Position numbers and translations under genes: made by a program. The notes beneath the pieces were generated by a model. That model ran no database searches. It was not told the DNA's origin and saw only the letters and a list, made by a program, of their open reading frames with translations. From a virus, in the IMG/VR virus record IMGVR_UViG_3300013132_000064, positions 1 through 53,707 of that record: a DNA stretch of 53,707 bases; one strand, written 5' to 3'. Below are positions 28,354 to 30,753 of this stretch, in pieces. Numbering within the stretch: position 1 is the stretch's first letter; each line of letters begins with the position of its first letter.

Positions 28354-30753
28354 CTATAAGCGGGTTATAGAGTTGCCCATTCCGCCGTGTACACCACAAT
28401 TATAATAACTAGTTGTTGGATAATTATACTTTACTGTAATAAAAACTTTTCTTGGGGTCGCTGATGCACTCCAAGCGGCTGAGTAATTTGCATATGTAAG
28501 ATAGTCAATTCCAGAAACATTATATATTACTCCACCATTATTATAATCGAGTGCTGTTCCTGTGTTATCTTGAGTAGTCGACAAATAGAATGGATGAGAA
28601 TCAACAGTATTACTTGATACATCTAAAATATAAGTAATTCCTGGAAGGAATTTTAATACTGGAGCTTCTACGCCATCAAAGAAATATTTATTTCCTCCGC
28701 CTGTACTCTGTACTGTGATGTTATGAGTTATTGTTGTTCCGCCACTAGCGCCTACTGCCCCTGTTGGGCCCGTAGCTCCAGTTGATCCCGTTGCGCCAGT
28801 ACTTCCTGTAGGTCCAGTTACTCCGTTTGCTCCTGTTGGGCCTGTAGCTCCTGTTGCTCCATTAGTTCCATTAGTTCCATTTGTACCAGTAGGTCCAGTA
28901 GCCCCTGTTTCTCCTGTTGCGCCAGTTGGACCCTGAACATTACCTACATCAGACCATTGTGCATTAAGCCAAATGTAAAGTTTACCAGCAACAATATATC
29001 CGTCTCCAGTTTGTCCTGTTGGTTGTGCTGATTGTAATTCTGCAAGACTGTTATACGAACCTAAAATATTTAATCCTGCTCCAGGTGCACCAGCTGCTCC
29101 TTCTACGCCAGTTGGACCAGTTGCACCAGTACTTCCTGTAGGTCCAGTTGCACCAGTAGTTCCTGTAGGTCCTGTAGGTCCATCTGGACCAGTGGGACCT
29201 TGCTTTAATGTAAAGCTAAGTACGGCGTCTGTGCTTGTCCCTGTGTTTGTAACAGAAGGAATTCCATCTGGTCCAGTTGGAGTTGTAGTTCCAACTGCAA
29301 TAGTTGCTGGTCCTGCTGGTCCAGTAGCCCCTGTAGGTCCTTGCTTTAATACAAAATCAAAAACTGCTGCAGCTGATGATCCAGAATTTGTTATAGAAAT
29401 ATCGCCAGCTGGTCCAGTGCTGCTTACGGTTCCAATACTTACTGTTGAAGCAGATCCAGTTGGACCCAGTGGACCTGTAGGGCCTTGCTTTAATACAAAA
29501 TTTAAAACAGCATCTTGTGCTGTTCCAGAATTAGTAACTTCAGGAGATCCATCTGGCCCAGTTGGATTTACTGTTCCAATTGATATTGTTGCAGGTCCTG
29601 TTGCACCTGTTGGACCTTGGAATTGTCCAGCATCAATCCATTGCGTTGAAGCCCAAACATAAAGATGAAGATCTGCTTGAACAATCCAAGCATCTCCATC
29701 ATTATTTCCTGCTGAAGGCAGATCTGCTGTTGTAGCTTTTGTACCCTTAATATTTATTGATGCGCCTTGTGGACCAGTTGAACCAGTTGGACCAGTTCCG
29801 CCTGTTGCACCTGTTGGTCCTGTTGGGCCTAATAGACTTGCTGCAGGTACCCAATCTGGTGGCTGAATTGTTGTGTCCCATAGATAAAGATATGCAGTTT
29901 CTCCAACAAAAAATGCATCTCCAGTAGTATTTCCAGTCGGAGGTAGTTCTGATTCTTCTTGCAAAACTCCTCTTACGGTAATTCCAGATCCAGTTGGGCC
30001 AGTTGGACCTGTTGCGCCAGCAGATCCTGTTGGTCCAGTTACTCCTTGAATTCCTGGTGTTCCATTTGTACCAGATGCCCCTGCTGCTCCTGGATTTCCA
30101 GCTACTGCAAATACCCATTCAGAAAAAGTTCCACTTCCATTTTTTGCATCTAATGCAACTGTTATACTTACATTTGTTACTAACGCAGAAATGATTCCTT
30201 CCATATATGAAGTAAAATTAAGTGGATTAATAATTCTTACACGCTGTCCTACAACATAAGCTCCGCTAGTATTTACAAAAAATGTTTTTGCTCCAGTAGA
30301 ATCAATTGTTTGAGTTGTAGTTGAAATTACATTAGAATAGCCAGCGCCAGTTTGTCCTGTTGCCCCACCTCCGCCGCCGCCTGAACCAGGTGTGCCGCTT
30401 AAATCTATTCCTGATATTGTTACTGCAATAGTATTTGGAGTAGTTGTAACGGCAGCCAATACTTCTCCGCTATTAATGATTAATGAGTGTTCAAGTCTTA
30501 AACTTGAATTATTTGGAATGTTATTATCACCATAAAGCTTATAAGGATCAAGGCTTGACCTATTGATTCCATACAAATTAATTAACGCATCTGCATTTGA
30601 TGGTAAAAGATAAATACTAAATGGGAGCGTTGATTCGCTAAAGTTTGTTACAAGAAACTCTTTTATTATTATTGTTGATGTAGCTGTAAAAAGCTTTTTA
30701 GGAGTTGATAGTAAGGTTTCGGGTCCAGATATTCTAATCGGAGCATATGACAT
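28354..30753 (-). CDS. Collagen-like fibre with cupredoxin-like C-terminal tip
   Basis: The 799-residue protein starts with a beta-sandwich domain (about 1-125; ends AVTISGIDL) similar in pattern to the 106-residue protein at 34882-35202. Several Gly-Pro-Thr/Gly-Ala-Thr collagen-like runs follow, separating two repeated modules: three units of about 50 residues ending LYxWxxxQWxDxGxxQGPTG-like, and three of about 46 residues (IGTVxPTGPDG, VTNSGT, AVLxFxLKQGPTG). The C-terminal domain (about 675-799) holds His720 (SHPFYL) and [12 protein letters not shown] with Cys786, His789 and Met792, the spacing of a type-1 copper site. AGGAGG precedes the ATG. It is presumably a trimeric tail fibre with the C-terminal domain outermost. 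Confidence 0.85.

Follow-up and report, generated by a model that had tools for sequence, protein, structure and literature searches.

A predicted cupredoxin domain with type-1-like ligands at the tip of a collagen-like phage fibre and in other virion proteins of aquatic phages

The collagen-like fibre gene and its sister loci

The window analyzed here, meaning the whole stretch of 53,707 nucleotides, is a 53.7-kb IMG/VR virus record (IMGVR_UViG_3300013132_000064) with a G+C content of 38.7%. On its minus strand it carries the gene of a 799-residue protein that is identified as a collagen-like phage tail fibre by its Gly-X-Y repeats and its phage structural neighbours; the genes around it encode a glycosyltransferase, a LamG-like protein, the portal, a protease and other structural proteins. 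The portal is 56–58% identical to those of phages of Streptomyces (Wofford and Karimac among them), which points to an aquatic actinobacterium as the probable host. The features of the gene are as follows.

28354..30753, minus strand: collagen-like fibre protein, whole gene, 799 aa; an open frame matching Pfam Collagen PF01391 (E 2.7e-15) and PHROG tail fibre families, with orthologues in 23 viral contigs
30121..30753, minus strand: N-terminal 211 residues, probable virion-attachment end, 62–66% conserved in most sister phages, whichever tip is present
28741..30120, minus strand: collagen-like stalk, rich in Gly-Pro-Thr with small domains interspersed (sequence and Pfam)
28354..28740, minus strand: predicted C-terminal cupredoxin domain, residues 672–799 plus stop (AF2 model, Foldseek, VIA-align and profile link)
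28594..28596, minus strand: codon CAT of His720, proposed first metal ligand, in S-H-P-F (position and alignment invariance)
28396..28398, minus strand: codon TGT of Cys786, proposed thiolate ligand (position and alignment invariance)
28387..28389, minus strand: codon CAC of His789, proposed ligand (position and alignment invariance)
28378..28380, minus strand: codon ATG of Met792, proposed axial ligand (position and alignment invariance)

A first-pass annotation had placed a type-1-copper-like site in the segment that comprises the last 128 codons and the stop of the 799-codon frame. The four residues that it named, His720, Cys786, His789 and Met792, lie exactly where it put them, and the ligand order and amicyanin spacing that it recognized hold as well, since C-x2-H-x2-M equals the loop CTPHPFM of Paracoccus amicyanin. 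Cys786 is the only Cys of the fibre protein, and C-x2-H-x2-M occurs once among the six-frame pieces of at least 60 aa in the window. A search of the window for a second copy of the domain, in which one of the profiles used misses even the known copy, found none.

The glycosyltransferase gene (27263–28399, minus strand) directly follows the fibre gene in the window and in all six sister loci compared. Its likely start is the ATG at 28339, and the listed TTG start is probably too early, because most relatives match from residue 21. The actinophage DSL-LC01 encodes a 52%-identical glycosyltransferase near its collagen genes. The adjoining glycosyltransferase, together with the (Gly-Pro-Thr)n stalk, suggests O-glycosylation of the fibre, a modification known from the BclA filaments of Bacillus.

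Fibre orthologues were retrieved with the N-terminal 211 residues only, to avoid a bias towards particular tips. The 22 full-length orthologues comprise one with the window-type tip, 18 with a shorter tip, referred to as class B, and three with an unrelated short tip, so that a predicted cupredoxin tip with all four residues is present in 19 of the 22. The gene order around the fibre is identical in the six loci compared, which span the three tip classes, and the sister fibres form a natural tip-exchange series. The unrelated tip (L209, L211 and L213) ends in a WDSNYIYVCTATNTWKR-like sequence, with no cupredoxin there, and none was found elsewhere in these class-C sister contigs, which are fragments. 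In another sister phage (record of L202, 14396–14695) the cupredoxin domain occurs a second time, encoded by a frame of its own whose 459 aa come close to the length of the DSL-LC01 YHYH protein.

Predicted fold and candidate ligands

An AF2 model of residues 672–799, built with 38 homologues, is mainly beta and forms a beta-sandwich (mean pLDDT 95.8, pTM 0.88), and Foldseek and VIA-align comparisons assign it to the cupredoxin fold, bearing out the likeness noted in the first-pass annotation. In the numbering of the modelled domain, His49, Cys115, His118 and Met121 correspond to His720, Cys786, His789 and Met792. According to DSSP, strand 110–115 ends at the Cys, with His118 and Met121 in the next loop; the last strand spans 124–127, and His49 lies immediately ahead of strand 51–54. 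The model therefore places His, Cys, His and Met in the type-1 order, with Cys at a strand end and His and Met in the following loop, and the predicted order of strands and loops around the proposed site is the cupredoxin topology at a type-1 site.

The Foldseek matches in the PDB are dominated by rusticyanin, AcoP, the cupredoxin domain of CuNiR, plastocyanins and multicopper oxidases, with probabilities up to 1.0 and a best E of 1.9e-4; the top 50 also include protein arginine deiminase chains between the cupredoxin matches. Because the TM-scores are moderate (about 0.36–0.54, with large rmsd, for which a 20–30-residue insertion is partly responsible), the predicted structural likeness is at the superfamily level, not a close one. 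VIA-align ranked a laccase domain (Z 9.4, rmsd 2.8, 106 aligned) and a nitrite reductase domain (Z 9.3, rmsd 2.6, 99 aligned). A minimal 97-aa relative, modelled separately (pLDDT 92.5), matched rusticyanin (Z 9.4, rmsd 2.6, 89 aligned) as well as CuNiR, plastocyanin, amicyanin and an azurin carrying the amicyanin loop. The AF2 models of two members thus display the Greek-key beta-sandwich of 7–8 strands that characterizes the superfamily. In the BFVD, predicted 'beta-sandwich proteins' of pithovirus- and marseillevirus-like giant viruses also resemble the domain (E about 1e-6 to 1e-5).

In an alignment of 38 diverse relatives with a mean column identity of 51%, eight of the 106 columns are invariant (N17, H49, P50, Y112, C115, H118, M121 and G122), and all four proposed ligands are among them (hypergeometric P about 1.4e-5). 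Both HP[FLI] and C-x2-H-x2-M are present in 84 of 87 distinct domains. Three domains depart from this: one lies at the end of a contig, one has C-x2-H-x3-M instead, and one is the degenerate copy of P-HM2 gp7. As a check on retrieval bias, the His is kept in 62 of the 63 distinct domains in which the His-containing search motif is missing, and the four residues are kept in 18 of 18 class-B tips found through the fibre N-terminus alone. The His and Cys codons vary synonymously (CAT/CAC and TGT/TGC), as expected with selection on the residue. These patterns indicate that the four classical type-1 copper ligand residues are under strong selection. A chance motif was considered and rejected on the invariance in the 38 relatives, its low probability and the conservation in the sister tips retrieved by their N-terminus.

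In P-HM2 gp7 (L038 frame 3027, residues 1538–1643), a cupredoxin-like copy with lost ligands lies beside an intact copy; the fold can persist without the site.

Relation to characterized copper proteins

The window domain alone matched no copper model of Pfam or NCBIfam (NCBIfam at E 1). Sequence searches of the PDB, whether started from the window domain alone or from a profile, were uninformative by themselves: antibody chains came out on top with insignificant E, and plastocyanin, pseudoazurin and a copper oxidase appeared at E 0.3–1.2 only. When the window family was compared directly with nine cupredoxins by hhalign, a 33-column N-terminal match of low probability was the only result. Sequence homology to characterized cupredoxins, weak in such direct comparisons, is detectable through the class-B sister-tip family, which serves as an intermediate. 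The window and class-B families align with a probability of 99.6 (E 7e-24), with H, C, H and M in register, and the class-B family aligns with a set of amicyanin, pseudoazurin, halocyanin and plastocyanin sequences at E 1e-4 and a probability of 58, with C, H and M in register. Members of the class-B family match the NCBIfam models of amicyanin (TIGR02657, weakly at 6e-5, a model that the window domain does not match), plastocyanin (6e-4) and halocyanin (3e-3), and cover profile positions 17–97 of Pfam Copper-bind, below its curated cut-off; the best Copper-bind match among the alignment members is 7e-5.

Six columns are invariant in an alignment of eight sequences (amicyanin, a halobacterial cupredoxin, plastocyanin, cyanophage proteins and the window domain). 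In the amicyanin precursor numbering they are G67, T69, H80, C119, H122 and M125, and four of the six are the copper ligands. The profile comparison outweighs this alignment, because rare residues can pull distant alignments together.

Paracoccus amicyanin, whose ligands are His53, Cys92, His95 and Met98 (PMC12723479), resembles the phage domain in its cupredoxin fold and in its His ... Cys-x2-His-x2-Met pattern, and its loop, which the window domain shares, is equally short. While amicyanin is a small exported electron carrier encoded in a methylamine dehydrogenase neighbourhood, the phage domain is the C-terminal module of a virion fibre, in a context of fibre, glycosyltransferase and portal genes and lacking the His-Asn pair. 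The residue after the first His is Asn in amicyanin and Pro in the phage domain, which also has longer loops. With Pro in this place the main chain has no N-H there, a group that probably helps to tune type-1 sites, which counts against the copper-site reading. Because Pro takes the place of this Asn, the phage site may differ from amicyanin in colour and potential; changing Asn54, next to the first His ligand of amicyanin, shifts both potential and stability (PMC12723479).

The type-1 domain of the multicopper oxidases offers a second comparison. Its first ligand likewise lies in H-P-F (HPFHIHG in CueO), and a laccase domain tops the VIA list. In contrast to these oxidases, the phage protein has a single such domain, with C-x2-H-x2-M instead of HCHxxxH....M and no further trinuclear-cluster His.

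We regard an intact metal site in the predicted domain as very likely, and copper as probably its natural metal. The His2-Cys-Met sites of cupredoxins accept Zn and other metals, and many relatives of about 270 aa bear a CxxC...CxxC zinc-ribbon-like N-terminus, as might be expected if Zn(II), Fe(II) or Cu(I) only were held in a structural site on a cupredoxin frame. The combination of an axial Met with the C-x2-H-x2-M loop is, however, a copper set, and the closest profiles are those of copper proteins, which makes such a metal unlikely. Copper in a type-1-like site of a fibre module is the most likely reading of the sequence and model data.

Distribution and proposed role of the module

The domain is present in at least 125 phage records at E < 0.01, including cyanophages, three pelagiphages and others, with Methylophilales phages added at a looser E limit, and in at least 522 viral-contig stretches. 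Its annotated carriers are baseplate wedge proteins, gp9-like connector proteins, tail fibres and virion structural proteins; the first-pass annotation's statement on similar endings in virion proteins of aquatic phages was therefore correct, and an understatement. Its description of a fibre tip fits the window phage and most sister phages but fails as a general rule, as the domain also lies inside the P-SSM2 stalk and in cyanophage baseplate proteins. It is C-terminal in 67 of 103 frames, internal or N-terminal in others and in tandem in some, and its lengths, positions and partner domains vary. Because it occurs within the collagen stalk of P-SSM2, the domain is a mobile module, attached to or inserted in fibre and baseplate proteins of aquatic phages, and not solely a tip.

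The P-SSM2 fibre PSSM2_028 is collagen-like, as is the window fibre, and its domain is 62–64% identical to the tip of a sister phage; there the domain is internal to the stalk, with further collagen and then a distinct C-terminal domain behind it, whereas it is terminal in the window fibre. The class-B tip is 64% identical to this domain of a Prochlorococcus phage and 39% identical to that of the lake actinophage DSL-LC01, where it is fused to a YHYH domain. Since the identity of 64% joins phages with hosts of different phyla, it indicates a probable horizontal exchange between them. A close-relative search of plasmids found no domain, and a scan of bacterial and archaeal genome contigs gave one match, on a metagenome-assembled genome contig, in a protein of phage-type look; these close-relative searches revealed no cellular source of the domain.

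Several relatives combine the domain with others. Many loci (L003–L034 and similar, about 230–275 aa) join a CxxC...CxxC zinc-ribbon-like N-terminus to the cupredoxin domain, so that a single protein, probably of the virion, would have two candidate metal sites. In DSL-LC01, WJZ48554 (L217:3131-4501) contains the YHYH domain (PF14240, E 1.9e-22) and the cupredoxin domain, and its gene adjoins collagen genes and a tryptophan halogenase gene. In P-HM2, PHM2_106 (L103:6808-12291, about 1830 aa) contains a subtilisin-like protease region and at least two cupredoxin-type C-x2-H-x2-M segments, one of which matches Copper-bind and Cupredoxin_1 below their cut-offs.

Beta-sandwich folds are common on phage fibre tips, the tip is exchanged among sister phages, and P-HM2 gp7 retains a copy with degenerate ligands. 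These observations would agree with a metal-free adhesion domain of cupredoxin fold, serving receptor recognition only, in which Cys, His and Met would be conserved as core-packing residues. We consider this explanation rather improbable, since the four ligand types are invariant and exactly in register with cupredoxins in a domain where most of the remaining positions vary, a lone unpaired Cys with a loop His and Met is an atypical packing set, and the domain is also found within stalks and baseplates.

Cyanophages also encode real plastocyanin, an auxiliary gene product (petE) of the same superfamily and with the same ligands as the fibre domain. This is a separate 107-aa protein with a signal-peptide-like N-terminus, whereas the window domain is the C-terminus of a 799-aa fibre and not a small separate exported protein; cyanophage ACG-2014d has both plastocyanin and the virion-type domain, the latter in gp9-like and neighbouring baseplate proteins. 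The cyanophage plastocyanin and the intact type-1 ligand set would suit a device that exchanges electrons with redox proteins of the host surface or acts in a redox step of maturation. Such a function is very unlikely in our judgement, given that the analysis identified neither a conserved partner nor a redox gene in the neighbourhood, that the hosts span photosynthetic and non-photosynthetic phyla, and that the outer surface is variable.

In tailed phages, trimeric fibres of the T4 gp37 type also bear a metal site, in which HxH motifs hold iron between the chains (PMC11705849); the cupredoxin site, here a prediction, is proposed to lie within one chain. The iron of HxH fibres in marine phages has led to the hypothesis of metal as bait (PMC11705849). 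By analogy, a loaded tip could be a nutrient bait for a metal-uptake receptor of the host, in the manner of a Trojan or Ferrojan horse, and nearly all carriers of the domain identified here are aquatic phages. The probable actinobacterial host belongs to a group generally without TonB-dependent outer-membrane receptors, the 799-aa fibre has no HxH among its five His, and the domain also occupies baseplate and internal stalk positions, all of which make copper or metal piracy highly improbable. Neither electron transfer nor piracy drew positive support from the analysis.

Taken together, we lean slightly towards a true cupredoxin tip with selected type-1 ligands, which belongs to a mobile module of aquatic phages and for which we propose a metal lock. 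The absence of the domain from this fibre in three sister phages is a point against it, as is the folding of virion proteins in the cytoplasm, which contains practically no free copper. In the proposed mechanism, the chain would fold metal-free in the reducing host cytoplasm, and during or after lysis each chain would acquire a single copper (or a comparable soft metal) at its exposed site, giving three metals per trimeric fibre. By bridging the loop of the first His and the Cys-His-Met loop, the metal would lock the Greek-key head into a rigid, protease-resistant cap, leaving variable outer loops free for contact with the host surface.

The strong selection on the site amid variable surroundings suggests that the metal serves a constant purpose while the surface is free to vary, and the simplest use would be a metal lock that stiffens a beta-sandwich, as head or as spacer, on a thin collagen-like stalk. 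In these actinophages, the place of the domain at the fibre end and its swap with an unrelated tip fit capping and host contact; the internal domain of P-SSM2 and the domains in baseplates argue that contact is not the sole use. We infer the identity of the metal, the time of its loading, the trimer and the stabilizing and adhesive role, and we hold the combined mechanism of lock and contact only tentatively. That copper is loaded on release and used beyond stabilization for host contact, by copper-dependent adsorption or surface redox switching, seems doubtful at best.

No published description of a virion cupredoxin was found in the open literature, most subscription journals lying outside the search, and a cryo-EM paper on cyanophage A-1(L) mentions copper for grids only. 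The fold and the site are already known: described cupredoxins carry electrons, serve as enzyme domains or, when metal-free, act as signalling ligands. The open literature searched gave no instance of this fold and site as a mobile module of the virion. The window domain bears no Pfam or NCBIfam name, and such domains in viral contigs may be misread as metabolic genes of the plastocyanin type. With three tip types on one conserved fibre across sister phages, the role of the domain is directly testable.

Because the fold and the four ligands recur in fibres and baseplates of many phages, virus particles of aquatic phages may carry copper. If copper is bound, the particles of these very abundant phages would constitute a reservoir of copper in waters that contain little of it, and that in tightly complexed form, which parallels the idea of iron in fibres, and copper could affect both the stability and the adsorption of the virions.
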